This document shows positions 18,562 to 60,404 of a stretch of 64,000 nt of DNA, piece after piece (the first letter of the stretch is position 1; every line of letters starts with the position of its first letter). The stretch lies in contig CAMPDV010000008.1 of NCBI GenBank assembly GCA_946699065.1, forward strand, positions 1,488,001 to 1,552,000. Reading direction: 5' to 3'. This DNA is from Loxodes magnus (lineage: Eukaryota; Ciliophora; Karyorelictea; Loxodida; Loxodidae). The translations under genes were made by a program, and so were the position numbers. The notes below the pieces were generated by a model. That model did no database searches, had not been told where the DNA came from, and worked only from the letters and a program-made list of their open reading frames with translations.

Positions 18562-19445
18562 ATGTTAGGATTCAAATCAGGATTTTTCGTGGCTCCAAAA
18601 AGGCAAGAGTTAACAACATCCTAGAGAGGTTAAAACCAAGAAAAGGAAACCAATAAGGTCATCCATCAAATCGAATCTCCCATTTCTGAAGAAAAGCCTT
18701 GGAAATAGGAAAAAATTATTGATCAGGAAGTCTCGAATCTAGCACAGAGCAGTAAATAAACCATGATTAACTGAAAAAAATGGTACTGTACCTCCAGTAG
18801 AGGTCAAAAAGCTGAAGTAAGATAATAAGAGACTGATAGAAAAACTTGGAATTGCAGAGGAAATAAAATAGAGACTCATGACCTAAGAAAGAGACCTTAA
18901 CCCATTTTGAAATATTTCACAAGAACAAATCAATTAATAATAAAATTAAAAATAGAAGCAGAAAGAATTGCTCAACAAAATAGAAAAAATAGAAGAAAAA
19001 AAATAAAAATTGCAGTGCTAAATGGACCTACAATAATAATGAAACAACCCAATGATAATCGAAGGAGAAAAGAACTCAAGATTTAAACTTAAACGAAAGC
19101 AAAAAGATGCAAATTTTAAAACTATAGAACGCATCTATGGAAAAGACGCTAGAAATTTCAAAATTTTAAATAAGAATAATGAAACTATAGAAGAAGTTGG
19201 AGATTAAAAAGAAGATACAACAACAACTAAAAATTGAAAGAGAAGTATTATATTGCAATAAATTTGGAAAAATATACAAGATCAAAGATGCCAAACATTA
19301 TCTAATCGAAAGGATACCTCAATGACATGTGCATAGCAAGGAGAAAAATTGTAGAGACATTTAAACTTTTATATTTAGTCTTAAGAACAATCTAGAAGCT
19401 GGTGGGAAAGAGGTGAAATACGTCCAAGAACATCGAACATTTAAT
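18562..19445 (+). mobile_element. decayed ORF1-only retroelement copy (family related to 25.9-26.8 kb)
   Basis: Starts with ATG 18562 (MLGFKSGFFVAPKRQE), runs through a charged coiled coil (VEVKKLKQDNKRLIEKLG) and ends with FSLKNNLEAGGKEVKYVQE. The - strand copy at 25.9-26.8 kb aligns throughout: its coil is LQEEVKKLKNDKKKLEEI and its end FSLWSNLEASGKEVKNLQE. The frame changes near 18,740 and again near 19,190-19,230. A 46-nt GT-AG intron (18752-18797) could repair the first change, but the related copy reads through that region as coiled coil, so indels are more likely. In the CCHC knuckle region of the other copies only CNKFGKIYK with scattered Cys/His remains. Confidence 0.6.
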
Positions 19446-19802
19446 TTTGTATATTTATTTGTACTTATTTTAGTCCGAAAAATTTTAATAAATAACTGAT
19501 ATAAAAAATAAACTTTAATTCTATTCTTTTTTATCAACTATATGGAATTTTTGTTAGTTTTTATTTTATCAATTAATTCCGCAACGTGAACGTTGTGATC
19601 CTTTTGCTAAAAAAAATTTTCTTTCTAATTTTCTTTTTTTTGGATAATTGATTAACTATAGAAAGAATTGACTAAAGAGAAAAGGATATCTTATATTTAC
19701 TAGAAATTTTAAATAAAATTTATACCTTACAAATTAAATGAAGTGAGACAGTTGAAAAAACTAAATTAAAGCCATTAGGATAATATGAATAATCTATTAA
19801 TT

Positions 19803-20330
19803 AACGTGGATCCATCTTTATTAAATCCACCATGATAAATAAAAGAAACCAAACTTTATTCTTAATAAAAGTCTAGTAATCTTCTAGCTTCACCTGGTCT
19901 CTCTGTTTATATTTTCTTCTTTTATCAGTTTTTAAAATCAAAATTGATTACCTTCTTTCTCTAGTTTTTTGTGATTCTGTGATTCAGTCCAAAGGCAGGA
20001 GTTAGAAAAGTTTAAAGAATACTCAGATATTTCTGTAAAATGCCATAATTGAATTAAATTCTTCTAAGTGAAAATTATTTCTGATCTCAGTCAAGTCTTT
20101 AGGTGTTTTCCATTCGAACAGATTAACGACATGTAAGGCAGGATAATTCTGAGACCTGAACTTCATTGCTTCATATTCAGATTCTAGTACCGATAGAGTG
20201 AATTTTCAAATAGCTAAGGCTAATATAAAAAAGGATACATCCTTATTTATCAGTGGTGGAACCTATTGCAAGAGTACTTTTAATACAGTCTACACTGCGG
20301 GTTACCTATTGGGCTGACTAGAGTCAAACA
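19803..20330 (-). repeat. Cys-rich dispersed repeat, copy 1 (about 520 bp)
   Basis: The - strand reads GNPQCRLYQKYSCNRFHHW near 20.3 kb, then LYRYQNLNMK, and continues toward 19.8 kb. The copies at 55.87-56.39 kb and 63.66-63.80 kb share this order of motifs and the DNA around both ends (for example a CACCATGA box near the low-coordinate edge). Here the ring of Cys/His is partly lost compared with copy 2. It looks like the C-terminal end of a larger transposase- or zinc-finger-like protein, but I cannot name the family. Confidence 0.5.
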
Positions 20331-20799
20331 TATATCCCAATAACAAATACATATAATAAAGTATTAAATTTATATACATTTTTTATCTCTTTATATTCAC
20401 TTTATTTCAAACTCATCATAAATAAGAAGCAATCACATCATAATAGGACTTTATTTAGAAATTTAGCATTAAAATTATTAATTTAGAGTAATACGAAAAC
20501 TTAATATTCTTATTATATATAAATGGCATAAAAAAAGTTTAATAAGAACATATATGTATCAGATTAAAAAACTCAGTCATTAAAAAATAAGATACAAAAT
20601 TAAAAAGAAAATTCTGAAATAATGTAAAAAAATTTACTGAAATAAAAATTACGATTCTTAGCCAAATTTAATAATTAAATATATTCAGTAATTTGTGGAA
20701 AATATATATTAGATATTAAAAAACTGGAGGTAATTTTATGTTTTAGTAAAATACATTTTTTAATTTAATTACTCAGTTTATTAAAAAAATTAAGAAAAA
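20331..20799. other. intergenic, no gene recognised
   Basis: AT-rich sequence upstream (on the - strand) of the Cys-rich repeat and downstream of the tRNA-Asp gene. No coding frame found. Confidence 0.4.
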
Positions 20800-20871
20800 C
20801 TCCGAGGCCGGGGATTGAACCCGGGTCGTCTGCGTGACAGGCAGAAATACTAGCCACTATACTACCTCGGA
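20800..20871 (-). tRNA. tRNA-Asp(GUC): tRNA-Asp (GUC)
   Basis: On the - strand a 72-nt cloverleaf: acceptor TCCGAGG pairs with CCTCGGA plus discriminator G, the D-arm region is TAGTATAGTGGCTAGTA, the anticodon loop reads CTGTCAC (anticodon GTC) and the T-arm contains GGGTTCAATCCC. CCA is not encoded. It has the same sequence as the copy at 34,963-35,034 but unrelated flanks. Confidence 0.95.
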
Positions 20872-20939
20872 TCTTATTAAAAATATACGCAAAAGATTAA
20901 ATAAATATATGATTATTGTTTATGATATACAAACTTTTA

Positions 20940-21640
20940 AAATATTAAACTCTAGTGTTATTTATACTTAGTCCTGTTATCTCTTCAAGTTTTTTAGTTT
21001 TCTTTTCGTTTAAATATTTTAAAACCAAAACAGTATTTAATCAGATACTGAGAAGAATTGCAATATAACACCCTTTATTTTCTACTTCTGCTTTATTTCG
21101 GAAGAATAAATTCCTAAAATTTTTCCAATTTTTTAGTTATTTTAGTCCTTTAAATTAATATTTAATCATTTACTTGATTATTCACTATAAAAGTCTAAGT
21201 TGCTTCAAAAATCATAGGAATTTTTCAATTTAATTGGATTAAGATTAACAAAATATCTATTCTTATGCTAAAACTTTATTTTGAGCAAGCTACTCCAGTT
21301 TTTATATTGCTTCTAAAACTAAGACATCAATATATTTTATTCGTTCACTTAATTTCTCAAAAAGGTTGTAAATTAATCATGTTTCTGAAAATTTTAATCT
21401 TAATGTCACAATAATCATATATGGATTCATTTTTTTGCTCTGATATTGAAATGCTATCCTAGTTACTTTTTAATCATTTACCTTGCTTCATCAGCAAAGA
21501 TATCGGTGACTTTTGTTTTTTTCTCCTATTCTGGCTTATCTCTTAGCCTTTTTTCTCTAATTTTTATTTTCTTTACTATTTTCCATTTCCACTGTTCTTT
21601 TATTTAATTCTTTGTTTAGTTATAATTTCAAGCTTTTTAT
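20940..21640 (-). pseudogene. possible decayed coding region
   Basis: The - strand has blocks with coding composition, such as KVTDIFADEA, IKYIDVLVLEAIQKLEQL and EITGLSINNT. They lie in different frames, and no TGA stop appears before the tRNA gene. It may be a decayed gene or chance. No family recognised. Between here and 22,553 I see nothing else. Confidence 0.25.
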
Positions 21641-22552
21641 AATAAAGATAAAATAAGTTGATATGGGATATAATAAAACCAGGATATTGAATAAATTCTA
21701 AAAATGAAAATTGGTTAATTTATTTACATATTCTATTAATTAATAGCTTACTAATAGCATTTTTCAATATTTTAAGCTTTATAAAGGTGTTTGCCTACTT
21801 AGCTTTCTATGATTTGATACAAAGGCTATATAGCAAAGCCTTATTTATCTTAATAATTTATCTATTAGTATATAAAAGTTCCTTTAAAATATTAATTTTC
21901 TTTAATTATTAAATAATAATAACTTCTTATATCTATAAGCTAAGATTTCATCATATCTACTTAGATTAACTTTTTTTCTTATTTCTACTAAAATATTAAA
22001 TAGAATCTTCAATTAAATCCATGTCTTAAATGATACATTTTAAATATATAATAAGTTCACTAATTGATTCAAGTTATTGTAAAGAAGAAAGATAATTTTA
22101 AATCTAGTTATGCTTACACAAACCCAAGAAAGAATATTTATAATTTAAGAGACTAGAATGAAAAACAGGTAATATAGTATCCCTAAAGAAAAATTAGTCT
22201 ATTAGATTTGAATATCTTAGTATTTTTACTTTGGTTACTATTAAATTATAGTATTAATATTATATTATAAGATTAAATTTCCAATTTATCTTCAATACTA
22301 ATTTTTGAGCGTCATATTTTTTAATGTTTTAATTGTAAATTTTCTAGAAAATATAGGAATGATCTTAACTTACAAATGGAAACAATTTAATTTTCTCTTT
22401 ATGCAAGTATTATGTAGAAATTAAAATGGAAATTTTTCTATTTCTATTATATAACTACTTTTAAAGTTATTAGCTTAGTACTCTCGTTCTAAATTGTATC
22501 ATAAAACTTAATATATTTGGAGTTTAATTATCTTATTATTGTTATTATTGCT

Positions 22553-23430
22553 ATAATAATGAAATTAAAATGTTCAACAGTGCCAATCTGGACACCGTTT
22601 AAAATAAGTTGTTTTATCAGCAACATTTCTCATCATTCTTGACTTTCTAATGAAATTATCTTCACTAAGGTCTTCTCAGTTTCTTTGATTTCTTGTTCTT
22701 ATTATTTCAAAAGGTACTTCACATTATTTTCTTCTGTAAATATCTCCATGCTAGTTGCAATAGAGCCTCGTGTACTTTTCTTATTCTTTACGCCAAAATT
22801 TTTTCTTGAAATTCTAAAATTTTTAGCAATTCTTGTACAAATGTCACTTACTATTACAGTAGTAGCATTTCTTCCTTACTTATCTGATTGGTTTTCGATT
22901 TATAACCTCTTTTTATTCTATCTCCATCTAATTTGTCTAATTAGTTATGTTTGTGCTAATATTCTTTTGCTTAATAAACTCCAACTCTTGTTTTTATACG
23001 ATATTTCCAAGTCTTGTTGTTTCTTATCTATGTTCAGTTTAAATGTTCCAATATGCTTGGAGTTCCCTTTCTTAATTAATAATTCTAATCTCCAAGTTAT
23101 CTTATCCAAGCGATAATAAGTTTCTTAGTTCTTAATTTTCCTGCTTAAGCACTTTAATCTCTTCCTAGAGATTGGATATTTCAAACACAAACTGTTAAAT
23201 ATTGATTTCCTTTTTAATTATCTTTGATGGAAGTTCTTTTCCTGTTATTATATTTGATTCTTTTCTTTCTATTACTTTAGGAGGTATTTATTATAGTTAT
23301 TAGGTTCTTTATTAGTTTTGTAAGTGAGGAGAAGAAGACTCTTGATACTTTTTTTATGCCTGTTTTTCTCTAGAGCTTTTTGCTCTTCTTTGCTCAAGAG
23401 AAAGCCGGGAACAAGATTTTAAGACTCTAT
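22553..23430 (-). mobile_element. ORF1-only retroelement with coiled coil and CCHC knuckle, copy F
   Basis: The - strand, read with the reassigned code, gives a continuous frame from about 23,420 to 22,560. It has a Ser/Gln-rich start (KYQESSSPHLQNQQRTQQ), a coiled coil (LQEEIKVLKQENQELRNLL) and a CCHC zinc knuckle CYYCNSKWHLYKNC (W is TGA), followed by a basic tail. The opening ATGGAG of the sister copy G is ATAGAG here, so no start codon remains. The 3' end runs into TTATTA-type sequence. It is nearly identical to 41,247-42,127. The long + strand ORF in the same place is only its antisense shadow. The role is inferred: Gag/ORF1 proteins bind nucleic acid during retrotransposition. Confidence 0.8.
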
Positions 23431-23865
23431 TTTTTTTATCCTATTATTATTGCTATTAAATTAATTTTTTAATACTTTGAATTCTACTAGATTTCAACTA
23501 GTTTATGCTTCCTATTTTTATTTTTGCTGGATTTCTCTTCTATTGTTTTTATGTGGATAGTTGCAATTTCTCCTTCAATTTTATTAGATTTGTTCTGAAT
23601 CACATTCCTTTAATTTGAAAGACTCTTGTGCTTAATATATAATCAAGGGAATTTTATTTTAATTTTTTTATCCTCATATTTTTAAAGTATTTCAAAGCTA
23701 AAACAGCATTCTTATATATACTTGGTAAAATTAAAGTTGCAACCTCTTTAAAATTTTTAATATCTATTATATTTTTTGAAGGATATACTTTTGAAGTATT
23801 TTTATCCTTTTATTCATTAGTTATTAAAAATTCTATTTATCTTTCATCTAAATATTTATTATACT
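23431..23865. other. AT-rich spacer
   Basis: No supported gene. It may contain the 5' part of the truncated LINE tail that follows, but I could not align it. Confidence 0.35.
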
Positions 23866-24095: not shown

Positions 24096-24361
24096 CATTT
24101 TTTTATCTCAAGTATCACCAAAAATTCTTCATATAAATTAGATTGGAATAACGAATAAAGAAGCTCATTGATGAGTCTTTATTTTGAACAAGTTATTTAC
24201 ATAATTAAGAATTTTATTGTTATTAAATAACTGATTCGGCCTCTTTTATTTTCTCAGAAAGATAGTAGATTTACTCTTCAAGCTTGCAAAGAAACACATT
24301 TTATTTAGTCATATTACTCATAAAAATTAGAATAATTTATTAAATACTAATTTTGCTAATA

Positions 24362-25200
24362 ATGAGAAGAATATTCGTCTTTCAAAGAAATAACAAAGAA
24401 AAATAAGAAAAAAAGTGACGAACGAAGAGCTAAAAAAGCAAAGACAGGATAGAGAATCTAGCTCGTCTTCAGATGGAAAAGTAATTGTTGGTCCGAATGA
24501 ACAATAAAACCCTGAAACAAAAAATAACATTTACTCCAAAGCGAAATCGAAAAAATGAAAGCAAAAATTGCAAAATATGAAGAGATATTTTTTAATCAAG
24601 GAGAAAAAATCCGGGAGCTAATGAATTACATAGAAAATTAAAATAACGAACTACTAATTCTCAAAAGTTAATTGATTAAAAACTCAGTAGTAACAGAAAA
24701 TTAACTTTATGAAATGTCGTAAACTAATTTCACTTAATCACAAAGAATGATCATAGAAGAAGATTAACACAAAATGCAACTTTAAGAAAAGCTAAAATTA
24801 AGAAAAAAATTATACAAACATAAGCAAAATAATTGAGATGCTGGAGAAAAAATTTTATTAAAAATAGAAATTAGAAAAACGATATAAAAATTGTTGGTAC
24901 TGCTAATCTCGGTATCACTTACTAAGACATTGTAAGAAATGAAGATAATTCAAGTACAATGAAGAATAAAGGACCTGATGAAACTTAAACAAACTTTGGA
25001 TAACTGAGTAAGGCATATATAAATAGAAACCATGAACAAGAAACTAAGAGAATCCTTCGTAATAGCCGTCCACTTTAAAAAAAGATCGCGGAGAACAACC
25101 CCGGAAAAAAAATTGTCATCTGAAACCTGGTTGAAAACCCAGGATATGCAAAATTTAATTTTACATTTAGTTAAAATAATAATAATATAATAATTTAATA
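24362..25200 (+). mobile_element. ORF1-only retroelement, copy A (CCHC, PGWKPR type)
   Basis: Starts near ATG 24,362 after an A/T-rich leader. It encodes a coiled-coil region, then the zinc knuckle CWYCQSRYHLLRHC (C-x2-C-x4-H-x4-C) at about 24.9 kb, a conserved WNLNKLWITEQGIYKQK block and a terminal PGWKPR motif at about 25.13 kb, followed by an AATAAT-rich tail. The frame changes between the coil and the knuckle, so this copy is probably defective. Copies B (50.9 kb), C (57 kb) and D (60 kb) share the same plan. Confidence 0.75.
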
Positions 25201-25939: not shown

Positions 25940-26765
25940 TTTAAAAAAATTTAATATATATAATATTAAGTGTTAGGCGTTCTTGGAGGTTTTTCACCTC
26001 TTTTCCGCTGGCTTCCAGATTGCTTCAAAGGCTAAAATTAAAAGATTAAAAATTTTTCACTTCCTCTCTGTAATTTTCAGTTTTACTATATGTTCTAATT
26101 CTTTTTTTCTCGTTAAATATTTCCCGTTACATTCATACATAGTCTTTCTCTCTCTTTTAAGCTTCAGTTCTTCTATCTATTAATTTTTCTTAGTATTTTT
26201 TTGAGTCTTCTAACACTCTAACTTAAATTTTAGAAACTTCTTGCATCTTCTCAATAGATACATAATTAAATTCCAGAAATATAAAACTTCACTATCTGTA
26301 TATGTTTACTTGTCTTTTCTTCTTCAATTTCATATTGCCACATTTTCGATTTTATTAATCAATTTGCAATTGTAATATATTCTGAATTTTTTCCAACTGT
26401 ATTATTTATATGTCTAAATTACTCTATTTCATTTCATAGCTTTAGGATTAGTTGTTTTAACTCTGCTACATATTACAGAAAGTATTTATGTCTCTTTCTT
26501 GAGACATGAATCTTGAATCAATCTCCTCTTACTTTTATATAATCTCTTCTAACTTCTTTTTGTCATTTTTTAGTTTTTTCACCTCTTCCTAGAGGTTTAG
26601 TACCATTTTCTCTAGCTTTCATAGTTTATTTATCAATCATGGAGAATTCTGGTATTTCTTGCTGCACTAAATTCTTAACCTATTTTCTAGATTTCTCCTC
26701 CGATTTAGTCTCTCGAATTAGTGAGGGTCTCTTTTTTTGTGTCCTTTTTCTTTTTCATGGTGCTT
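25940..26765 (-). mobile_element. ORF1-only retroelement, copy H (decayed)
   Basis: The - strand encodes a coiled coil (LQEEVKKLKNDKKKLEEI, then FMSQERDINTF) and ends with FSLWSNLEASGKEVKNLQE. It aligns with the + strand copy at 18.56-19.45 kb. Several frame changes and loss of a clear CCHC knuckle mark it as degenerate. Several in-frame TGA are read as Trp. Confidence 0.55.
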
Positions 26766-28881
26766 TAGGATACTATTACGACCTTCTACTTAGACAAATA
26801 AGGAAATCCTTCTAAAAAGATTGTTAAAGTTAAGTTTATTAATAAAATTATTTTTTAAGTAATTATGGTAGTAAGAATTGATGCTTCATGCTTCCTTCCC
26901 TACTTTTAGGCGGTAAAGCAACCTTTCTTTAAGAAATCCTCATTTTAGAATTCAATTAATATTAGAATTTAATTTAATTTATATCTAAAGTAAGAAACTT
27001 GCTTTGATCTTTAAGCTTTTCAATTTTTCATTTTTTATAAAATTAAAATTTGATTGCTTTAATTCCTTTATCTAAAGTATATATCTCACCCTTCGCATTG
27101 CTTATAGTTGGTTTTACTCAAATTTTAATATTGGTCTATTAATGTCTCCTATTATCTTAGTCAATTAGTATTAAGAGTCACTTAGCCAGACTTAAATATC
27201 AATCTTAATCAAATTTTTAAGCCAGATTGTTTTTCTTTATCAAGTAAATTCCTGATAACAATATAATGAAGAAAGTACTAAGAACAGTATTAGTCAAACT
27301 TCCTTACAATATTACTAACATAACACCAATTCCTTGAATAATAACTACCCAATAACTAAATATAGAAGAATGAATTAAAGAAGTCTAATAGTAAAATTAT
27401 AGCAAACTTTCCTATATGATAAGATAGCAGCTTTAATAGCTTTAAACTTAGCTAGAAATTAAATAAAATGCTTTGGTATTTCTAAAAAGCATCAGATAGA
27501 TAATAATGGATAAAAAAGTTAAATTGGTATGATTATCTATCTACTTTTATAATAACTTAAGTGTAAAGGAATAAAGAAAAAGAATAATAAAGTAAATTTA
27601 TTTACTAGAACGAAAGATATTCTAAGTTTGCTTTAAAGAAGGATAAAATTATAAACATAAATACGTTTTTATCATAGCATCAAATTAATAAATGAAGGAT
27701 TTTAGATATTAGTTATGTTAGGTAAGCATGCACTTAAATATTTAACAAATGAGTCTAAAAAATAGTTTCAAAGTTATTTTATCAGCTTCTTAAAAGTATA
27801 CTATAAAGAAATAATTAAAGTAAGTTGCAAATCAATAATTAAAAAAAATCTTTTTAAAGAAGAAAATTTTATTACTAAAGCATATTAATTAAGATATTTA
27901 ATTAATAGTTATTTTAGATATAAAAGGATAAATATATCATAGCTGTAGGCTAAAAGATAAAATTTAAACTTTAAATTAAAATGCAATACATAAATAGAAA
28001 GATTTCTCCTTTCTATTTAACTAAAAAAGCTTAATTAGGTATGAAAGCCTCTAGTCATTTTCTTAAGAGAAGATTTAGCAATAAAATTTATTTTTATTCA
28101 TAAAACTAAAGGATTTTACCTTCATTTACCATATTATCCTTACCTAACTATAATTGATTTAAATTAAATTGTATAAATTCATTTAAAATGCTTGCTCAAT
28201 CATTGCTATAAAATTTTCTATTTAAATCATTTAAATTAAATTCAAAAAGCTAGTTTAAATTGACTTGACTTATTTATAACTATAAAAAAATGATGAATAT
28301 GCTTTTCAGATTATGTTTGATGATTAAGATTATGAAACTAATTCCATATAACTCTGCCATGTCATAATATCTACTCTTAATTTTTTTAATTAAATTTATT
28401 CTTTCTTACCTCTTTTTTTAAGAGGTAAGTGGAATCATACTTGACGAGAGAATGAAATGAATAAGGACATTCGTATCAACTTTATAAAATTAAAAAAGAG
28501 AATGAAAACTTTATACCTATTAGACAATTTAAGCTTACTTACTTAGTAAAATTAAATAAACTTATGATATAAGAAAATGTTTAAGTTTATTATTTTTAGT
28601 TTCCCAGTCCTAGCAAACGTCCTACTTTATTGAAAAATCCTCTATAGTTTTATATTTTTTAATAACTATCTTTGGTAATAAACTAGCTTATAAATTTCAA
28701 TTCAAATACTTTTTTACAATCAATACACGCAAGATCTTTTTGGGAATACTTTTCCTATTCAATATTATTATTCAAATGCTAGCTTAAGCAATCCTAACAG
28801 TGTCAATTTTTACAACACGGAAGCTAGTAGTTTGTTTATATATGCTTTTACTATTTGCATATTAAGCAAATTTAAGTTTAT
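26766..28881. other. intergenic, no gene recognised
   Basis: About 2.1 kb of AT-rich DNA between the retroelement block and the 3' end of the OTU-RBR gene. No supported frame on either strand, no RNA gene and no family repeat. Confidence 0.45.
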
Positions 28882-42127: not shown

Positions 42128-42139
42128 TTTTCCATTTTA

Positions 42140-43105: not shown

Positions 43106-43123
43106 TACCTAGGTCATATAATA
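43106..43123. repeat. 18-bp target-site duplication, left copy
   Basis: TACCTAGGTCATATAATA here is repeated exactly at 44,012-44,029, flanking the inserted ORF1-only element. Both copies belong to the LINE coding sequence (YLGHII motif). Confidence 0.8.
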
Positions 43124-44011: not shown

Positions 44012-44029
44012 TACCTAGGTCATATAATA
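44012..44029. repeat. 18-bp target-site duplication, right copy
   Basis: Exact repeat of 43,106-43,123. The LINE frame resumes directly after it (EENISFEKHMENRLEAA). Confidence 0.8.
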
Positions 44030-45395
44030 GAAGAGAATATCAGTTTTGAAAAACACATGGAGAATAGACTAGAAGCAGCATAAAAGATATAAGCATGGTT
44101 ACTGGGAAAAATAACAATGAATAAGGGATTAACACCATATAATGTAGGAATAATGATGAAAACCTTCGTAATCTCAGTTTAAGTGATCCCATATTACGAA
44201 TAATTCGTAGGAAAATAAGTGATAGAGACATTAGAAATAATATAGAAAAGACCTTTACGAGCTTTCGTAGATGCCCCTTTAAGTTTAAAATGAGATGTTA
44301 CAATATAAACTGTAGTTATAAAATTCAAACACTACCTATGACAGAAAACGTTGAGATTAAGAGTCAGAATAATAGAAACTAAGGAAAAACATTAGCCAGA
44401 TTAATGTTCAGCCTAAGTAAGGAAGAGAGCTTTATATTTGAATAATATTGCACGGCAATAAAATTATAATTATGAATTAAGAACAAAGAAATATTTATAG
44501 ATGATGGTAATAATAATTAAAAAAGAAAGAAAAACACAAATCGTGCAATATGAGAACATAGAGTATACGTAGAAGATAGAGAAAGGATGGAGTAAAGGAT
44601 AGCAACATTACAGTATAGAAAAAACATGATTTGATGAATATGTAATAGGATCACCCAACTATCTAAAATACTATAAAAATAGAAAAGAAAAAATATGCAA
44701 CATATTTAGAATAAGAACGAGATGTATTTGGAGCTAGGATTGCTTAAAAGAAAGACACCTAGTTGTGACAAATCAATATCCTTTCTGTAATGATACAAGA
44801 GAAAAGAAAGGCATATCATAGAAAAATGTTCAAAATAGAATACAAAGAAGGAAGATAAATATTTATTTGAAATCTAAGAGTAATAGGAATAGAGAAATAA
44901 GGAATGGAATTATTTTATATAATATGAGATCTCAAATTCGAGAAATTCATTAGAGCCTAAGAAGAGTGAAAAAATCTAAAGCTGATTTGATAATAAAAGG
45001 TGATATCAAAGGTATAATAGAAAAAAGGAAAAAAAGATACATAGAAAAGAAAATTGAATGAAAAAAATAGAAAAATACTATAGAGCAGGAAAAAGATATT
45101 TTTTATGAGTTTATAAAGGCTTGATTAAGAAGAAAATAATTTAAAAAATTAGCAAGATATATAAGAAAAAATAAAGGAAGCTTGCAATAAAGATCTAATA
45201 AAGTGTAGATAGGTAGAAGACAAAAGAACAAGAGATAATTTAGAGGAAAATGATTAAGACATGCAATTAATAAGACAAGAATTTTTATTATCTAAAGGCT
45301 TACTTGAAGAAACGGACATATATTGAAATATGGAAAGAGTTGCGCACCAACGAGGTACTAAGCGCTCTATAATAAAATTTATTAATTATTATTAT
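44030..45395 (+). mobile_element. LINE ORF2 C-terminal part and 3' end
   Basis: Continues the interrupted element: YLGHII from the duplicated site, then FEKHMENRLEAAQKIQAWLG, the usual post-palm region of LINE reverse transcriptases. A later Cys/His cluster NQYPFCNDTREKKG with HIIEKC resembles the C-terminal zinc knuckle of LINE ORF2. A Lys/Arg-rich tail runs to about 45.3 kb. The element ends with the hairpin GAGTTGCGCACC ... GCGCTC (about 45,341-45,372) and TATAATAAAATTTATT. A close copy of the last 500 bases is at 62.19-62.72 kb on the other strand. Confidence 0.8.
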
Positions 45396-46579
45396 TTAGA
45401 AAAAATAATTTAGTACTTTAGAAATAAAGCTTTTAGTTTATTTTTATTAAGATATTTCCTTCAAGAATAAGAAAAGCTGCATATAAGTTATATAAGTTCT
45501 ACTAATATTCTTATATTGTAATTCTAAATAAAAAATGAATACATTTTATTAAGATAGCTTATACAATTTCTAATATACCATAATTCTAAATAATTATAAA
45601 ACACTTAAATTGCTTTTTTCTATTTAATTTTCAGATTTATAGACTCAGCATACTGTTTATTATATGATATCATTTGAATATATCTTATAGAATTAAATAA
45701 TAGTTAAGAAAATAACAAAATTTAAAAATATACTTTCGTAAAGAACATAAAGCAAAAATAGAAGAATTAAAAGATTTAAAAAAATGAGACAAAAAATAAA
45801 ATTTGAATGAATAAAATATTAGAATAAATTAATTATAAATTAGACTATAAAAAGATATAATATTATAATATGCTTTATAATTAATAATTCATTAATTAAT
45901 TTATAATATCTTTAGACTAAGTATTTATATTCTTTATAAATAGTATAAAATAAAAATTTTAGTAAAGAATAAAGTATATTAAATAAATTTATTAGGTAAG
46001 GGAAATAAAATTAAAAATAAGTTTATTCTAAATATATTAATTTTTAATTTATCAAAGCTTATCTAGTTTTTTAGCAATTTACTTGTAAGGAAACATAATT
46101 AATTTATATTAATTAAGATTATTATGAATTTATATTAAATGGCTTTTGATAATTAGATAGAGTCTTATATAGATTGATAAATAGATTGCATATCTTCTTA
46201 TATAGCACTTAATATAAATAATGCTTTACTTTTTTAATTTTAAAATAGCAAGCAACTTATATCTAGATATTTTACTACATCTCATTCTTTTGCTTAGCTT
46301 ATTAGAATCTTTATTTTATAGTTAAAATTTAAGAATATTTACAAGTATCCTACAACTTAAAAATGGACAGAGTAACTTAGTTAAGATATAATAAAATTAG
46401 AAAATGAGGATTTAAATAGATAATTAAAGAATATATCCTTAATACATGTACAGTTTAAGAGGCTTTAATTTAAATTATAAGGATATTAGTTTAAAAGTAT
46501 TACTTTGCTATACTATAAACACTAAATATTGATTTAATAGCTACTAATAAAAGAAATATTAAATCATTCATCATAAATA
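45396..46579. other. AT-rich spacer, no gene recognised
   Basis: About 1.2 kb with no supported frame. It separates two LINE 3' ends of opposite orientation. Confidence 0.4.
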
Positions 46580-49202: not shown

Positions 49203-49280
49203 ATGAAAGAAAGTAACCAAGCTGAAGATGAATGGTCACATGAGGAAGATTTATTTATTATATATATTAATATAAAATGA
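49203..49280 (+). pseudogene. Myb/SANT-like gene, 5' part, split by an insertion
   Basis: From ATG 49203 the frame reads MKESNQAEDEWSHEEDLFII, the start of a Myb/SANT repeat (acidic lead, W, EED). It then meets the ORF1-like element that begins at about 49,281. The second half of the repeat (KWTKIARHVNKTFYN, then QQIKRRW) is found 870 bases downstream at 50,155. Together they make one normal Myb repeat, but the halves join only with a one-base adjustment. Confidence 0.5.
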
Positions 49281-50154
49281 CTTCTAAGAAATAACAGAAC
49301 TTTGAACAAAACATTTAAACAGGAAAATTCTCTAAAAAATAAAAAAGCGAAATAATTAAAATGAGTGAAAGTGAGAAATATGATTGATATGACGAACATT
49401 AACCACTTGGAAGTCCAGAATTAAAAAAACTTCCGACACAAACTCAAATAGAAATATTATCTAAGTCATTAAAAGAGTTTATGTTTAAAAATAGATACCT
49501 CACTGATAAAGTAGAAAAATTAGAAAAACTAATAACGTCTTTATTTGAGAAACAATATTAATCATCATAAGAAATAGAAAAAAAACTGGAACAAAGAATT
49601 CTTTAAATTTAATAATAAATTCAGGTAACGCCATTTTCGTTTTAACAAAATTAATCGGATCTTATGGAAATAGAAAATGAAGCCTCAAATTAAAATAAAT
49701 AGTAAACGTTTATTTAAAATAAGTAGTAAATTTAAATTAAATAAGTGTTACAGGAATAATAGTTTAAAAGAAGAATAAAATGCTACGTGTGCAATAAATA
49801 ACACCAATGAAAATACTGCTACTAACTAAGCGAAATTTAAAGAAAGAATAAATAAGATATTTTTAGAAAACTATTCAGGATATATCCAACATAAAGCGGA
49901 AAAATTTATAGAAAAAAATTCTTTAATTCAAATCTTAATCCTTGGATAAATAATTAGGAACGCTAAGTGCAAGACCAAAACTATTCAGAATATTAAAGGA
50001 TGGTGCACTAATGAAGTGCTACACCGCCTAGCTAAGCCTAGTAGGAATTCAAGACAAACTAATAGAGACAATCTGATAGAATAGGTCAGATGGCTGACTA
50101 CTAAGGCTTTAACAAAGTTTTTTAACTTTTAACTTTTAACTTTTTTATGAAAAA
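49281..50154 (+). mobile_element. ORF1-only retroelement, copy J (intact coiled coil plus CCHC frame)
   Basis: An open frame from ATG 49277 to TGA 50156-50158 gives about 293 aa. It has a basic start, then YDWYDEHQPLGSPELKKLP, coiled coil (LTDKVEKLEKLITSLFEKQ), Gln-rich linker, knuckle CYVCNKQHQWKYC (W is TGA) and an Arg/Gln-rich tail. The 3' end is a tandem AACTTTT repeat (about 50,127-50,147). A decayed copy on the - strand at 53.68-54.43 kb shares DEHQPLESSKLQKLP and the same AACTTTT-type end, so this is a repeat, not a host gene. It lies between the two halves of a Myb-like gene. Confidence 0.65.
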
Positions 50155-50706: not shown

Positions 50707-50887
50707 ATAAAATTACTAGCATATATTTGAGATTTTGCAAATAATAAAAACATTAAGAAAGAATACTTTTTATTCTTTGATTTCACTCTAATATATTAAA
50801 TTATTTATTAGTGGAACTCTTAATTTAGAAAATAGTGCTATTCTAAATTTTATGCTTATCTATAATTTAGATCATAATTTTTAAAAA

Positions 50888-51720
50888 ATGGAAAATTGCG
50901 CGGTAAAAAAGAAAATAGTCAATTCGCCTTTCTAGAAACTAAAATAGAAAAGCCAAAAGAAAGGTGAGCAAAGAAAAATAATAGTAGATGACTACATCGA
51001 ATCTAGTTCTTCTTCCAAAGGTAAAGTGATGGCTGGAATGTAATAAGTAGAAGAATAAAAATTGACCCATATTAAAAACTCTAAAATTAAGTCGAACAAA
51101 TGAAAAAATAAATTTCCCGATACGAAGAAACTTTATATAAAAGGCATAAAAATAAAAGAACTTATGAGTAACATTTATTTTCAGGATAATGAATTAACAA
51201 TCTTAAGAAAATAACTAATATAAAATCAATTAATAACAGAAGAATAATTATGAAGATAATCTTAATCAAACTTACCCAATAATCAAATAATGGAATTAGA
51301 AAAAATTCCAACTTAAATAAAAAAAAAGAAATCTCATAAATCGAAATTTAGGATCAGAATATAATAAAAAGATTAGAAAAGATAGAAAACAAGATATTTA
51401 TAAAAAATTAATCAAGATAAGAACTTAAACAATGTTGATACTGCAAATCAAGATTTCATTTATTAAGGAAATGCATAACCTGAAAAAAACTGAACGAAAA
51501 AGAACAAAACAGAACATGAACTTAAATTAACAAACTTTGAATTACATCAAATGGAATTTATAAGAGAAAAATATTTGCTGGATAGACTGAGAATCAACAA
51601 TGGTTACCTACCACTTAATCAAGAAGGTCGTGGTATCCATCCTCGTTAAGAAAATGGCAGCAAGTACCTGGTTGAAATCCCCGAGAATGCTAAACTCTTT
51701 TTTACATTTAGATTATAATT
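50888..51720 (+). mobile_element. ORF1-only retroelement, copy B
   Basis: ATG 50888 after an A-run, then a basic region and Ser stretch (ESSSSSKGKVMAGM), coiled coil (NELTILRKQLIQNQLITEEQ), knuckle CWYCKSRFHLLRKC with TGA for W, block INKLWITSNGIYKRK and terminal VPGWNPREC. The frame shifts between coil and knuckle, as in copies A and D. An AATTAATTAATT-type tail follows. Confidence 0.75.
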
Positions 51721-52463
51721 AATTAATTAATTAATTTAGATCATAAATTTGGATGCTAGTATTTTTTATTTTAAGCTATAATTATATAAAGAAATATTTA
51801 GCCTCAACTTTAACAAAGGCTCTCTAATTTAAATAGACATTGCTTAGAATAATTATTTATAGGATATTTACTAATTCATCAATTTAGTTGTTATTCATGC
51901 ATAGAAAATATTAATAAATATATTTCTCTCTAACTTTCATATAAACATAGCTATATAAATTAGGAAAAGATAAAATAAATTAGAGAAATAGAACAGAATA
52001 AATAAAAGATAGATATATCTAAATATTTCTTTTACAACTAGAGTCATTAAGTTGGAAATAGAAATGACTTTAAAATAAAATTAAGCAATGCAATTATTCT
52101 TTAATAGCACTAAATAAAATAAGTTTATCATATAATTACATCTTAATCATCTTATATAAATATCTAATAGCTATGCATTAATTAAAGCTAGTATACTATT
52201 AGTTATAGCCTTATACATTTATATATTTTCAATAATTAACATTTCTTTCTATATGATGTACTCTAGGTTTATATATCTATAATTTAAAGAAATAGTTGCA
52301 TGCAATAAATTTTGGATTTAATAATATGTAAAAGAATAAATAAAAGGTATTATGATATAATTCATTAATTGTATAATAAATTTAATGCTATCAAATATAA
52401 GAATCCTGAGAAGATAAATCTATTAAAATAAAAGAGAGCCTAAGAAATAAAAGATCTCTCTCA
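51721..52463. other. intergenic, no gene recognised
   Basis: AT-rich, no supported frame or RNA. Confidence 0.4.
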
Positions 52464-53110
52464 ATGAATGCCTAAAAAATGGAATACAAATCTAATTTAA
52501 TCGAATAATCACCTTAATAATATAAATTAAATAATCTTAGGAATCCTTTGCATAATACGTTTCTATAAGGGATATCAAGTGTATGGTAAGAGTAAAAAAA
52601 ACGTAGAGTAAAGATTGAAAAATTAGAAAAAATAATAGAAAAAATAGATGGAAAACTACTTTTATTTCCATTTATAGAGGATGCAATAAATAGCCTATAA
52701 TCGTAAATGGGACATAAACTAGATGAGATTGACAAATAATTTAATTAAATCCTCAGATACTTTAATTCTGGTTTTCTTAATTCCAATATAAAATAAAAGA
52801 ACTTTTTATATATAATATTCAAAATGAAATATATAAAGAATAAATGGAAAGCAGGGAAATATTTTAATGGACATTGAAATCAATGAATAATAATAATGCA
52901 TAAGAAAAATAAGCTGCTATGTATGGTAAAAGTAGCATCATTATAATAGATTCTGGAAAAGAAATCAAATATATGAAAAAAAGAATAAAAAATCTATTTC
53001 AAATATGGCCAACTCAAACAGGTTAAATAAATAGGAAAAAAAATTATAATAGTAATATTAGAAATTTAAAAGTAGATTTTAGATGTAAAATGCTTAACCA
53101 TGAAGTATGA
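52464..53110 (+). CDS. unknown protein (208 aa, one 20-nt intron)
   Basis: Start MNAQKMEYKSNLIEQ at ATG 52464 (or ATG 52479). It runs through KIEKLEKIIEKIDGKLLL. After removal of the 20-nt intron 52703-52722 (GTAAATGGG...CTAG) it continues WDWQIIQLNPQILQFWFSQF and then MYGKSSIIIIDSGKEIKYMK. Without splicing the frame changes and fits poorly. It reaches TGA 53108-53110. The next ORF starts in an overlapping ATGA, so either these are two genes or there is another small intron near 53,100 that I could not place. No family recognised. Confidence 0.55.
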
Positions 53111-53652
53111 ATTATAAATACGGATATCTGACTAATGAAGCCCCTAAACTGGTCTCTATTCAAGAGAAGTCTTTTTCAGATGCCTTAATAAAACCACCTT
53201 TAGAATCTATTAACTCCTTTTAACCTTTTTTATAGTTAAATAGTTTTCTTAATTTTATAAATAATTAATAATACAAAAGGATTAAAAGCCAATCTATTTT
53301 CTTTCTTAATGTAAATATGAGGAAGCTTTACTAATAAATCGATGTAGAAAATATTATTAAAAGGTTTAAAAATGAAATAACTCTAGAGACTAATATTTTT
53401 GATAAAAAATGTATAAACCTATAGATTAAAGTTCAAAAGTAAGTTTATCTATCTAAAAAATTAACTTAAAAAATTCAGTAGGAAATAAGTAAAATTCTCA
53501 TTTATAATATGTTAAATATACTTTTCTAAAACTCAAAATAAATTAAATAAATTAGATAAGTTAAGAAGATATTTGCATTATTTTTAGCTTCTTTAGTATA
53601 TCAAAAAGCTTGTTCAAATCAATCAAGAAAGATTAAGATAGTTTTTACTTGA
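53107..53652 (+). CDS. unknown protein or 3' exon (181 aa)
   Basis: The frame from ATG 53107 to TGA 53650-53652 contains no other TGA. It begins MNYKYGYLTNEAPKLVSIQE, then KSFSDALIKPPLESI, and later a helical Lys/Gln-rich stretch (QQIDVENIIKRFKNE, then KKLTQKIQQEISKIL). It may be the 3' part of the preceding gene. No family recognised. Confidence 0.5.
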
Positions 53653-53674: not shown

Positions 53675-54430
53675 TAAAAAAAATTAAAAGTTAAAAGGCG
53701 CAATACGATCCTTATACTTAATCATATAACCTATTCTATTAGTTTATCTTCATTAATTTGGTAAAAAATCATATTAGACTTTGGTAGGCAGTAGCATTAC
53801 AATATCATACCGTCCTTAATACCCTGAAATATTTCTCCCTTATTTATAGCAATCATAATTATAATTTATCTAAGGATTAAAATTTTAATTATAGAGTTTC
53901 TTCTATAAGTTTTTCCAGCTCAATGCTGGATAATCTTAAATCGGCATTATAAATATCTTTTTTTTTCAAACTTTGTTTAATTAGTAACATTGTTTTCAAT
54001 GTTTTTGTTTATTTCACACTTTACATTTTATTCTTCTTTTAACTTTTATTCCTATATAACTTAGTTAACTTAATCTTACTGGCTATCTTAAATTAAAGCT
54101 TATTGTTTATTTTAAATTTAGATTTCATTTTCTATTTCCGTTGTACCTGATTAATTCTGTTAAAAAAATGAAATTTCCTTAAATTTTGTTAAATTTAATT
54201 TACTCTTTTTCCAATTTTAAATTAATGCTTTATGCTGATAGATATTGCTTCTCAAGTAGAGTAATATAACTTTTTAAGCTTCTATAGGAAGTTTTTATAA
54301 TTTTGAACTTTCAAGTGGTTGATGCTCATCGAATAATTCTTGTATCTAACATTCTTTCATTCTATATATGACATTTTTTATGTTTAGAACTTTTTCTTGT
54401 TTAAGTATTTTGCTATAAAGTCTGTTATTC
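53675..54430 (-). mobile_element. ORF1-only retroelement, copy K (decayed copy of J)
   Basis: The - strand shows FDEHQPLESSKLQKLP, the Gln-rich linker and the region of the knuckle with its cysteines lost, and ends in CTTTTAACTTTTAATTTT like copy J at 49.3-50.15 kb. Frame changes are frequent. Confidence 0.5.
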
Positions 54431-54730
54431 CTTAGCAACCATTTTTATATCATAATAAAATAGTACTTAAGAAATTATTCACCTAAAAGCAAAATCCTAA
54501 CTAACAATAAGATACCTTAATGGAGATTTTTTCGCTATAAGCTGGTAGAATCTATAGGATGTAAGCAGCAACTATTTCAGTAAATAAGCAGCCTTGTAAT
54601 TAAAATTAATAAAATATAAGATGATAATAAAATCCTTAATACAAAATGAGCTTAAAAACTTCTAAATATCTGTTCAATTAAGAAACTAAAAGAACAGAAT
54701 ATGAAATAAGAAATTTGAAGTTTCAATAAA

Positions 54731-55865: not shown

Positions 55866-56386
55866 TAGCTTGGTACCACCATTGTTTGGTTCACCATGAA
55901 AAATAAAGAAACAAAATTTATTATTAATAATAGGCTAGAAATGTTTCTAGCTTCATCTGGACTTTTTGATTCTTATCTTCTTCTCTCCGTTTTTATAATT
56001 AAAATTGATTGTCTTCGCTCATCAAGTTATTGTATCTCTTCCAAAGGCTGGAGTTAGAAGGGGCTAGAGAACATTCCAATATTAGTGTCATAGGACTCAA
56101 TTAGGTTAATTCTTATAAGTAATAATTATTTTAATTTCAGTCATGTTTTTGATGTTTTCTATTTCCTGATCAGAATATTGACATGTAAAATCAGGATAAC
56201 TCTGAGATCTGGATTTCGGTTTCCTCTAGTCGAACTCTCGTACTGATAGAGAGAACCCTCAAACAAGTAAGGCTTATCACACAATGGGCCTGTCTTTATT
56301 TGTTTATGGTAGCATCTATTGCAAGAGTACTTGCAATACAGACATAACTGCACCGGGTTACCTACTCGGTCTAATAGAAACCAGAA
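55866..56386 (-). repeat. Cys-rich dispersed repeat, copy 2 (best preserved)
   Basis: The - strand reads GNPVQLCLYCKYSCNRCYHK near 56.36 kb, then GPLCDKPYLFEGSLYQYESS, and keeps one open frame down to about 55.87 kb (through SPFQLQPLEEIQQLDERRQS). The Cys/His spacing (C-x2-C-x3-C-x2-C-x-H, later Cys) suggests a small zinc module. No start codon or upstream domain is present, so it is a fragment of a larger element. Copies lie at 19.8-20.33 and 63.66-63.80 kb. Confidence 0.5.
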
Positions 56387-56924
56387 TCCATTAAAAAAAT
56401 GAATTATTTAATAATAAACATAAACAAATATAATATGAAATGAAGATTTATATAAGGACATAAAGCTTAATATTTAATTCTTGCTATTATTGTCTTATTA
56501 AAATACCTTTATCTGTCTCCTTTTCTGATTTTATATCCTAAAATATTTCTATAAATTGAGTTAGTTTTTATTTAATAAGGACTTGATTGTATTTAAAAAT
56601 GTAGAATAATTTATCTTATTGAAATTTATTTTATGGTTCTGTAATTAATTAGTTTAAACTATAAATATTTTAGTTAATAAAAATAATAGATTGATTGAAT
56701 ATATTACATATATATTAATAAAATGCTACATAAGAAATAGCAGAACTCTCCAACAAAACCTAGTAATTTACCAGATCTTTCTAAGGATTTTATTTGTTAC
56801 AATTGGATAATTAGAAATTGACAAGAAATTAAGGCTTTAAATAAATAACTTAATCTCTTATGATAGCAATTAACAAGTTATTATTAATATTATTTATTTA
56901 AATGTTAAATAAATATTTGCGTAC
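56387..56924. other. AT-rich spacer
   Basis: No gene, RNA or repeat recognised. Confidence 0.4.
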
Positions 56925-57712
56925 CTTGGGTTTTCAACCAGGTACCAGTGGACAAATTTTTTTTCGTGGTTGTATTCTTCGACCTTTTCTTTAAGAGGGT
57001 GTTTACCACAAAGGAAACTCTTAATTTCTTATGAGTAATTTTTATTTATAAAATCCTTGCTCAGTTATTCAAAGCTTATTTAGGTTTCTTCAAATTTTTT
57101 GCTCTTCATTGTACTTGAATATCCTTCATTCTTTACAATGTCTTAGTATGTGATATTTAGATTAATAGTAACAACAATTTTTATTTTGCTTCTCGACTTT
57201 CTTCTTTGGATAAATCTTTCTTTCTAACATCTCATCTCTTTTGCTTAGATTTGAATCAATTTGTTCTTAACTTTAATTTTCTTAATGCTTATGTTAATGT
57301 AGATCTTCTTCTATAATCATTCTTAGTTATTATTCGAAGTTGGATTAAGAATTTCGTAAAGTTAATTTTCTATTACTAAACTGTTTTTTATCAGTTAACT
57401 TTTAAGAATTAGCAATTCGTAATTTTAATCTTCTAAGCAGTTTATTAGCTTCCGGATTTTATCTCCTTGATAAAGAAAGTTTCTTCATATTTTTCAATTT
57501 ATGCTTTCATTTTTTCAATTTAATTTTAGATTAATTTGTTATTTTGAATTCCAGGATTAACTTATTCAATAAGACCGATCATTACTTTTCCCTTTGAGGA
57601 TGAGCTAGACTCTCGATTCTGTATATGTTTTTTAGTCCTCCGTTAGTCGTTTGCTTCTGCTTTTCTTTTTTAATTCTTTGAAAGATGGATGTTCTACTCC
57701 ATTTTTTCCAAC
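56925..57712 (-). mobile_element. ORF1-only retroelement, copy C
   Basis: The - strand starts at ATG 57712 (MEQNIHLSKNQKRKAEAN), has ESSSSSKGKVMIG, a coiled coil (NYELLILKSQLIKNSLV) and a knuckle region NCCYYQSKYHILRHC in which the second Cys is Tyr. It continues LNKLWITEQGFYKQK and ends near 56,940 in a damaged LVPG-type motif. It contains frameshifts. Confidence 0.7.
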
Positions 57713-58335: not shown

Positions 58336-58711
58336 TTAAATTGAAATAAACAATAAAATAACTATTTATAATATTTTTCTTTATTTTTATATAAAAATAC
58401 GTTTTATGTATATTAGTAAAGAACATTGTTACATGACTTATTACAATTAGATTTATATTCAATTTAATAAAAATATTTTACTATTATCTGCTTCTTTATA
58501 TACTGAAAAAATCCAGTTTATAAATATAGTTAAGAAAGAAATAAAGTGTTAAAATATAACTTTAAAATACTTAATTATAATAAACAATTTTAATTTTATT
58601 TTAAACAATTTTATTTTAATATTTATTCTTTTAAGTTAAATAATAATTTATGTTTATTATGTTCGTAAATTATTAAAAATAGTGATTATTAATAAATTAA
58701 TTATATAAAAA

Positions 58712-58778
58712 CTCCGAGGCCAAGGGTTGAGCCCTGGTCATCTGCATACAGACATACAGGCCACTATACTACCTCAGA
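58712..58778 (-). pseudogene. tRNA-Asp pseudogene
   Basis: Recognisable as tRNA-Asp by its acceptor and T-arm (GGCTCAACCC in place of GGTTCAATCC), but only 67 nt long. The D-loop is shortened, the anticodon loop reads TGTATGC and the acceptor stem is mismatched. Confidence 0.8.
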
Positions 58779-59169
58779 TCTTACTTTTAATGATTATGTT
58801 ATTTTAAATAAGAAATTTAATTAATAATTGAGTAAAAATAAAAATAAATTAACAAGTTTTTTAACTTTATGCCTAATTAAAAATACTAATGCAACTGAGT
58901 AAATATAAAGAAAAAATAATAATTTTGATTTCAAGAAAGTATAAATAAACACTAGGTTTCTTTATTTTAAAATTATTTTTAAAATTTATTTAAAACTACT
59001 GAAGTTATTTAGTTTGTATTTATTATTTATAAATAAATGCTTTAATTTTTTAATTTTTATTTATAATTAGCAACTTTTTCAAATATAAACAAAAAATAAG
59101 TTTTTTCTAGCAGATGTTATATGCTTTGCTATTTTAATTAATTTTTATAAAGTAAGGCATAGGTACTTC

Positions 59170-59435
59170 TGATGCACAAGGAGCTAGTTTCCATAATGGT
59201 ACAAAGAAATTGTTTTTTTTTCAAAGTTATCCTTAACTTTATTTTTCTTAGAGTACTTCCACTTCTCTATTTGATGAATTTCCGACTTGCTTGTAACTTT
59301 CTTTTGATTTTAATCTTTCTTTTTGCAATTCTAATACTAGCCTTTTACTTTCATGCTTTTGCTATTTTACTGAATTTTTTTTAAACTTAGCATCATTCCA
59401 GTTGGTTCATCCAGTTCCATATATTTCTCAATCTT
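59170..59435 (-). pseudogene. frameshifted copy of the small Pro-motif gene
   Basis: The - strand has ATG (MELDEPTGMMLS), a Lys-rich body and the conserved end FVPLWKLAPCASEVPMPYF. A one-base change in a long A-run near 59,215 separates them into different frames. Confidence 0.6.
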
Positions 59436-59619
59436 CTTATATGCTAACACTTAGTCACCTAATTATTAGTATTACATAATAATATTATTAATAAAAGAAG
59501 TTTGGTATATAAATAGTAATATAGCAAAAAGAACCAGAAGAACATAAAAAATTATTGACTAAATTAAGTATATCGAAAAAATAATAATAATAATAATGTA
59601 AACTAAGAGTTTTAAATGT

Positions 59620-60404
59620 TTTGCTTTCCCTGGGCTTTCAACCAGGTACATACTGACATTTTTTTATACGTGGATGTATACCACGACCTTTTGTGTATGT
59701 GGATGGCTACCACAGAGAATTTCCATCTTTTCTAACGAACAATTTTTACCTATATACTCCATTCTATGTTATAAATAGTTGATTAAGGGCCCTTCATGTT
59801 CTCTATTCTTCTTTTAGTTTAAGTTATTTTCATTCTAGGCATTGTCGTAGTAAGTGAAATTTAGAGTTGCAGTACCAGCAAGGTTTATACTATTTCTAAG
59901 ATTATTTAAGAAAAACTTTTTTTCTAGTTTATCAATTCTCTTCAACAAAGTTAAGTCGATAATTTCATATTGTTTTTCTTGATCTTACTTTTAAAGAGAT
60001 ACGTTTTCTATAATCATATTTTATTCTTGCTTGAAGTTCGATTGAGATTATTCATAGAGTTATTATTCAGTGACTAGATTATTCTTGATTAGTTGACGTC
60101 TAAGTATCGTTAATTCATTATTTTGATCATCTATGTTATTCATGAGTTCTCTAATTTTTTCCCCTTGATTAAAGATTGTTTCTTCATACCTTGAAATGAG
60201 AGCTTTCATAGATTCAAGTTAAATTTGAATATTTGGATTGCTTTCTGTTTTGGATTCGTTCATCTCTACTAATCCAACCATTATTTTTCCCTCAGATGAA
60301 GAACTTGATTTTTAATCTTACAGCTGCTTTTTCATGAGTTCCTTCATCACTTTCTTCTTAGCATTTTTTAACTAACTCCTTGAAAGGCGAACAGAATGCT
60401 CCAT
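59620..60404 (-). mobile_element. ORF1-only retroelement, copy D
   Basis: The - strand starts at ATG 60404 (MEHSVRLSRSQLKNAKKK), then KSSSSSEGKIMVGLVE, coiled coil (GEKIRELMNNIDDQNNELTI), knuckle CWYCNSKFHLLRQC, LNQLFITQNGVYRQK, GRGIHPRIKKC and the terminal YVPGWKPRE motif. The tail is a TTA-repeat run at about 59,585-59,600. Coil and knuckle lie in different frames, so a frame change occurs near 59,890. It is one of the better preserved copies. Confidence 0.78.

Follow-up and report, generated by a model that had tools for sequence, protein, structure and literature searches.

Short retroelements encoding only an ORF1-like protein in the ciliate Loxodes magnus, probably mobilised in trans

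The DNA analysed here, the window, is a stretch of 64,000 nucleotides from the karyorelict ciliate Loxodes magnus, comprising bases 1488001-1552000 of contig C8 (CAMPDV010000008.1). The macronuclear genome is reported at 706 Mbp (PMC11441545), and the assembly searched holds 705,730,643 bases in 7843 contigs. Scattered over the window are short repeats with a single open reading frame (ORF) for a protein resembling the ORF1 or Gag product of retroelements. A sequence-only reading of this DNA had proposed at least eleven copies; all eleven loci are present, but the count was too low, with at least two further copies in the window. The copies are given below together with their target-site duplications (TSDs) and with a copy of a long interspersed nuclear element (LINE) that carries the reverse transcriptase (RT).

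18562..19470, plus strand: E1, group C, degenerate, 10-nt TSD
~20890..21650, minus strand: E13, degenerate extra copy missed by the sequence-only reading, 20.9 bits with the knuckle hidden Markov model (HMM)
22553..23434, minus strand: E2, group B, 12-nt TSD
24361..25190, plus strand: E3, group A, knuckle CWYCQSRYHLLRHC, approximate TSD
25956..26800, minus strand: E4, group C, degenerate, without a TSD reaching a score of 10
41248..42131, minus strand: E5, group B, adjoining the LINE I copy, 12-nt TSD
42206..45400, plus strand: 5'-truncated LINE I copy (RT part), split by E6 and separate from the short elements
43123..44005, minus strand: E6, inside the LINE I copy, flanked on each side by the 18-nt duplication TACCTAGGTCATATAATA (seen by eye)
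49265..50146, plus strand: E7, group D, tail (TTTTAAC)n
50887..51738, plus strand: E8, group A, TSD score 16
52380..53250 (ends approximate), plus strand: E12, degenerate group D-like extra copy, likewise missed before
53677..54457, minus strand: E9, group D, degenerate knuckle
56882..57712, minus strand: E10, group A, approximate TSD (score 8)
59590..60404, minus strand: E11, group A, 18-nt TSD

Self-BLASTN of the window links E3, E8, E10 and E11 (group A), E2 and E5 (group B, 96.9% identical), E1 and E4 (group C), and E7 and E9 (group D). BLASTN does not connect E6 to any of these groups, and its weak placement in group C comes from the alignment and a 3' block. A unit is 0.82-0.88 kb long and consists of an A-rich leader, an ATG, one ORF of ~250-285 codons, a UGA, a short 3' untranslated region (UTR) and a simple-repeat tail. 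Along the ORF follow a coiled coil, one CCHC knuckle and a post-knuckle motif. The UGA stop lies ~20-50 nt upstream of the tail and the UTRs are very short; that at the 3' end of group D may be longer than in the other groups. In group B the unit reads AAAA, ATG, ORF, TGA, 21 nt and an (ATT)n tail. The anatomy proposed earlier, with an A-run, ATG, coiled coil and CCHC knuckle, is borne out, the strict pattern C-x2-C-x4-H-x4-C being intact in five of the eleven copies (E2, E3, E5, E8 and E11). The knuckles of E7 (x3 in place of x4), E10 (one Cys missing), E6 (two missing) and E9 (one degenerate) are imperfect, and none was recognised by eye in E1 and E4. Tails had been described as simple AT repeats, which applies to groups A-C with their 3-4 nt AT repeats but not to the (TTTTAAC)n of group D.

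Training sequences for the knuckle HMM were 8 of the 11 copies, together with one group B peptide. These 8 copies score 90-117 bits, values that are high by construction. Outside the training set the HMM matches the independent window locus at 20.9 kb, listed above as E13, as well as fetched loci from elsewhere in the assembly, such as L054 and L022 at 77 bits, while 20 shuffled windows and the reversed window gave zero matches.

In Loxodes, UAA and UAG encode glutamine, and UGA, the sole stop codon, is read as tryptophan internally, when far upstream of the poly-A tail, and as stop near the 3' end (PMC11441545). With a mean of 53 and a median of 41 nt, its 3' UTRs are short, and over the ~20 codons ahead of the true stop there is a depletion of coding UGA (PMC11441545). 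Among six aligned group A copies, codon 175 inside the knuckle is TGG in three, TGA in two and TGT in one, while codons 190 and 202 are TGA in all six. Codon 254 is also TGA in 6/6, ~50 nt ahead of the tail. The group B majority sequence contains in-frame TGA at codon indices 195, 235 and 251, and a terminal TGA after 285 codons, 21 nt from its end. In both groups the pattern fits a reading of internal UGA as tryptophan and terminal UGA as stop. As codon 254 is invariant and close to the tail, its UGA is most likely the stop of group A. The ending PGWKPR, previously assigned to the A-E group, therefore has to be revised: it is most likely PG followed by a stop, the supposed tryptophan being the conserved UGA (6/6 in group A) and the remainder 3' UTR. 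A Tetrahymena-type code (code 6) was rejected, as frames then break at UGA codons where sibling copies have TGG.

Searches of the assembly, with at most 40 matches scored per DNA query, show that these units are abundant and have defined boundaries. With group B, 40/40 scored matches span nearly all of the 884 bases at 96-100% identity. Near-full-length matches were likewise obtained in 40/40 cases for group D (97-100%), group A (E3 query, 92-100%) and E6-like elements (88-100%, with four matches that end at base 833 of 883). A first look gave 905, 2231, 1738 and 558 candidates for group B, group D, group A and E6-like elements, respectively, which are loose counts and not copy numbers. The 30 fetched group B copies differ from their majority sequence by 1.4% on average. 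Exact TSDs of at least 10 nt flank 21/30 of them, compared to 15/870 cross-paired controls. The same check on the window copies, which the sequence-only reading had called for, gave a score of at least 10 in 6/11, compared to 6/110 cross-pairings. E6 is not among these six, its 18-nt duplication, seen by eye, lying further upstream; this duplication and its location inside the LINE I copy indicate that E6 was inserted after that copy.

That none of the elements contains RT was confirmed: no copy holds one, yet E6 lies inside an RT-coding LINE and E5 beside it. All 30 group B units are 879-885 bp long and consist of the ORF only, with no endonuclease (EN) or RT; LINE pieces occur just in the flanks. 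Hence the copies are not, for the most part, physically joined to an ORF2 (0/30 in group B). Nor do they behave like single-copy host genes, as the four DNA queries match high-copy families, although no search was aimed at a single-copy parent. Neither long terminal repeats (LTRs) nor terminal inverted repeats were found in the three copies inspected (L024, L061 and L057); the end repeats of L024 and L061 are TSDs, and L057 has none. The copies do not form head-to-tail arrays but lie scattered over many contigs, and within the window they occur in both orientations. TSDs and a tail, no LTRs or terminal inverted repeats and neither EN nor RT define these units as non-autonomous non-LTR retroelements. 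An identity as short interspersed nuclear elements (SINEs) was rejected in view of the ORF of ~250-285 codons, which is constrained in group A, and of the lack of any tRNA within the listed copies according to ARAGORN.

Copies open in a single frame were read in three groups, namely B, A (L061) and D (L057). In group B, ATG and knuckle share one frame in 18/30 copies, and ATG, knuckle and final motif in 11/30. The knuckle is intact in 6/6 fetched copies of group D, while the other fetched copies of group A, L062 and L063, have no intact knuckle in any frame. Selection was evaluated in groups A, B and D (E7/E9) by the ratio of nonsynonymous to synonymous differences (pN/pS). With E11 as the reference for five group A copies, pN/pS was 0.40, 0.46, 0.41, 0.36 and 0.39, with upper 95% limits of 0.45-0.56, compared to 0.77-1.22 in the two shifted frames. 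With E10 as the reference (72-81 codons), in-frame values of 0.35, 0.55, 0.49 and 0.52 were obtained, and 0.72/0.67, 1.20/1.19, 0.54/0.70 and 1.45/0.71 in the shifted frames. Past purifying selection on the protein is thus seen in group A only.

The knuckle regions of the protein are related among the groups, with z scores of 7.5 (A-B), 8.5 (A-D) and 7.4 (B-D). The post-knuckle segment alone gives 3.2 for A-D, 2.1 for B-D and 1.6 for A-B, and no support for E6. The heptad periodicity of the coiled coil is stronger than in all 200 shuffles for B, in 192 of 200 for A and in 199 of 200 for D. An AlphaFold2 model from 4 sequences (mean pLDDT 65.4, pTM 0.23) shows a long helix at residues 51-174, followed by a less certain knuckle region. 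No credible match for the protein was found in Pfam, above curated cut-offs, or in the PDB.

As a possible source of RT, the LINEs of the same genome were analysed. The labels LINE I-IV are those of this analysis, independent of the published Loxodes magnus family names. The best 150 of 3403 RVT_1 candidates were scored, which places weaker RT lineages outside the view. LINE I, II and III span 5.3-5.5 kb, and the one copy translated of each (L011, L013 and L015) encodes an ORF1 in which an RRM-like part was seen by eye, together with a GH-type CCHC, followed by EN and RT. The knuckle regions of these ORF1s are interrelated (z 21 for I-II, 11.4 for II-III and 5.0 for I-III) and for the most part unrelated to those of the short elements; no kinship was found between the protein of the short elements and the ORF1 read from LINE I-III. 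LINE IV (L016 and L017) is a young RT family, with 93-97% identity in most scored matches; the RT of L016 matches LINE I with an E value of 1e-19. The L016 copy begins within EN, and 410 nt further upstream are common to 40/40 scored matches. The full-length LINE with the same ORF1 that was to be looked for was not found among LINE I-III, as judged from one copy each, while LINE IV, read from within EN onwards, may still encode such an ORF1.

Short elements and LINEs also occur next to each other. In L009, a group D copy (1574-2467, minus strand, 95.5% identical to E7) follows a LINE I 3' end at a distance of 70 bp downstream, both having the same orientation. At C630:192226-195617 and at three places on C27, E6-like matches ending at base 833 abut LINE IV matches ending at query base 5549 at the same coordinate, and these repeated junctions are either chimeras or insertions. 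At C145:215710-218625 (minus strand), an E3-like copy precedes a LINE IV 5' piece of the same strand by ~1.7 kb, an arrangement that may be due to chance or may hint at the ORF1 of LINE IV. Copies of the LINE I 3' tail hairpin are found in the window at 23863-24090 (plus strand) and at 25469-25542, 46555-46631, 62163-62716 and 63407-63828 (all minus strand), with a further one seen by eye at ~61010-61060 (minus strand). In some of them the body is not that of LINE I, and these resemble SINE-like elements that have their tail in common with LINE I. Likewise, a repeat of ~500 bp at 19790-20308 and 55847-56364 (both minus strand), whose last 120-140 bp match the LINE III 3' end, probably represents a SINE-like element that carries the tail of LINE III.

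In the 3' part of group A, the block ACCTGGTTGAAANCCC and a TTTACATTTA-like block are alike while the copies diverge elsewhere. The group B 3' end forms a 9-bp hairpin (z -2.4 compared to shuffles), and folding z scores of -1.5 to -2.0 were obtained for E10, E11 and E4. For E3, E8, E1, E6, E7 and E9, folding was not clearly better than that of shuffles (z -0.5 to 1.8). Hairpins are also present at the 3' ends of LINE I-III (z -1.4 to -2.0). A pairwise search of 3' ends found no sequence common to the short elements and LINE I-IV except simple repeats, which favours, without proving it, recognition of the tail or of a structure rather than of a borrowed LINE sequence. One candidate for a shared recognition sequence, GCACTAATGAAGTGCTAC of group D, resembles the LINE II hairpin by eye; it was rejected, as it lies ~110 nt from the tail and has a z of 0.05 in E7.

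These findings point to non-autonomous non-LTR retroelements that encode their own ORF1/Gag-like protein alone, and we consider it likely that their EN and RT come from a LINE in trans. As the ORF codes only for a packaging-type protein and no copying enzyme, the RT is probably borrowed from other elements, and the families probably form a gag-only, trans-mobilised non-LTR superfamily. The element would be transcribed from some promoter, and translation would use the karyorelict code with UGA as tryptophan internally. The protein would oligomerise via its coiled coil and coat the RNA that encoded it, which would amount to a cis preference, and a helper LINE of the same genome would supply EN and RT. 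Target-primed reverse transcription would then start at the tail at AT-rich sites and leave the TSDs; some of the elements may still be active. The constraint on the protein of an element without RT suggests, as its best account, that the protein helps its own RNA. A further step, on which we are tentative, would be an independent superfamily of at least four families of LINE satellites that code for a coat protein only and never had an RT of their own in this lineage.

Several observations weigh against this interpretation. The group B knuckle region scores z 4.2 with LINE I and 3.9 with LINE II, and that of E6 scores 3.0 with LINE II, although these scores are carried by the knuckle, all post-knuckle scores being below 1. 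E6, placed in group C, is related to B with z 5.3, but its ties to A (2.3) and D (2.0) are weak. The frames are not separated in one E10 comparison (L016A, 0.49 in frame, 0.54 and 0.70 shifted), and the group D comparison of E7 with E9 (0.60 in frame, 0.50 and 1.06 shifted) is not decisive. Within the young group B no constraint is detectable: nonsynonymous and synonymous differences number 107:40 (ratio 0.88) when private, 29:10 (0.95) in two copies and 17:8 (0.70) in at least three, none of them significant, which is what dead-on-arrival copies would show. Finally, segmental duplication has multiplied single insertions among the scored copies. The sets L061-L063, L044-L046 and L027/L033 each look like one insertion in duplicated sequence, and since the latter two sets belong to group B, its independent insertions number fewer than 30.

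The short elements could also have arisen as internal-deletion products of an autonomous LINE with the same ORF1, either LINE IV or one outside our view, with mobilisation still in trans. LINE IV would be a suitable parent as a young RT family, 95-97% identical, whose copies reach at least 410 nt past the truncated L016 copy (40/40 scored matches), and the E3-like copy upstream of a LINE IV piece on C145 is what such a descent might leave. However, the ORF1 of LINE I-III, in the one copy read of each, is a different protein, no 3' end is held in common with LINE I-IV beyond simple repeats, and by eye only 1 of 40 listed E3-like places is near any of the 40 listed LINE IV 5' pieces. Such a descent is plausible, though less likely than not. 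A division of labour, with ORF1 and ORF2 on separate and mutually dependent elements, came to mind since ORF1-only units exist and LINE IV initially resembled an RT-only unit of 3.28 kb. That start turned out to be a 5' truncation of the query copy, given the 410 nt more upstream in all 40 scored matches, and an RT-only partner was rejected on this ground; as LINE I-III also have their own ORF1, a bipartite LINE is very improbable.

If the ORF were a relic, and LINEs copied any RNA with such a tail, the protein would be useless for spread. The absence of detectable constraint within group B, and the many frameshifted copies, seen in the 19/30 group B copies without ATG, knuckle and motif in one frame, would agree with such passive passengers. 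The pN/pS of group A, well below 1 in comparison to the shifted-frame controls, the conservation of knuckle and post-knuckle residues across families, and the presence in three groups of a copy open in one frame make this unlikely. Short units with TSDs and simple tails could also be retro-copies of the mRNA of an ordinary host gene. Processed pseudogenes would hardly account for several diverged families with hundreds or more candidates each, for 3' blocks specific to each family, or for a CCHC knuckle and coiled coil without a Pfam match above curated cut-offs, so this origin is scarcely credible.

The non-LTR elements known to us that lack RT and encode only ORF1 or Gag, HAL1 and HeT-A, both occur in animals and are tied to known LINEs. 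HAL1 (half-L1) of mammals is a non-autonomous non-LTR element that encodes ORF1p alone (PMC5753468), and like the Loxodes elements it has to obtain RT from elsewhere. The parallel with HAL1 drawn by the sequence-only reading holds for the mode of working but not for descent: in contrast to the L1-derived HAL1, the Loxodes protein consists of a coiled coil and a CCHC knuckle and, beyond the knuckle, does not match any ORF1 read from the LINEs, and the elements differ from LINE I-IV in their 3' ends. Neither an L1-type ORF1p nor an L1 3' end was found, and no Pfam family scored above its cut-off. HeT-A of Drosophila telomeres encodes Gag without RT, the latter being thought to come from TART or TAHRE (PMC5537684); Gag-only coding is the common feature, and RT supplied in trans would be another. 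HeT-A is confined to telomeres, in head-to-tail arrays, and its 3' UTR is long, whereas the Loxodes elements are interspersed, carry TSDs and have very short UTRs. Hence the Loxodes elements work like HAL1 or HeT-A and have the defining traits of neither.

Among ciliates, Tetrahymena has non-LTR elements, named REP, whose ORF1 may contain a zinc finger and whose 3' tail is conserved (PMC6564038). Compared by description only, they resemble the Loxodes elements in these traits and differ in that a functional REP carries ORF1 and ORF2 on one element (PMC6564038). The LINE families published for Loxodes magnus are autonomous and 5-6 kb long, and the excerpted text of the genome paper describes no RT-less ORF1 family (PMC11441545). 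The same source leaves most interspersed repeats unclassified (PMC11441545), and the short-element families may be among these, for example as an unclassified RepeatModeler family. The occurrence in a ciliate of ORF1-only elements with coiled coil and CCHC knuckle, in several families, is upheld. So is the suggestion that they are undescribed, as no ORF1-only elements of Loxodes or another ciliate turned up in literature searches, the supplements of PMC11441545 not being covered.

In the Loxodes elements, a distant eukaryote offers a large natural collection whose families differ in age, whose units stay below 0.9 kb with almost no UTR, and whose protein was not traced to the LINEs read. With them one can test what an ORF1 protein does where RT is supplied in trans, which of ORF1 and ORF2 is responsible for cis preference, and by what means an element nearly devoid of a leader is transcribed. 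Should they be an independent superfamily, selection on the protein of an element without RT would be direct evidence for a cis action of ORF1 on its own RNA.

Elsewhere in the window, a stretch at ~61.64-62.16 kb (minus strand) matches repeats of other loci and is possibly related to the short elements. With Rfam, three tRNAs are the only hits in the window. At 20800-20871, 34963-35034 and 58689-58783 lie a pair of tRNA-Asp genes, without a difference over 82 bp, and a third one that has decayed. Beside the tRNA, 34920-35829 and 58671-59542 are 73% alike over 0.9 kb. The region at ~48240-48490 appears by eye richer in G+C than its AT-rich flanks and matches no Rfam family at gathering score. 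A host-gene-like ORF at 9533-10999 (plus strand) continues through an in-frame TGA near 10373 without a change of frame, and by eye its product is a candidate EF-hand/calcyphosine-like protein.

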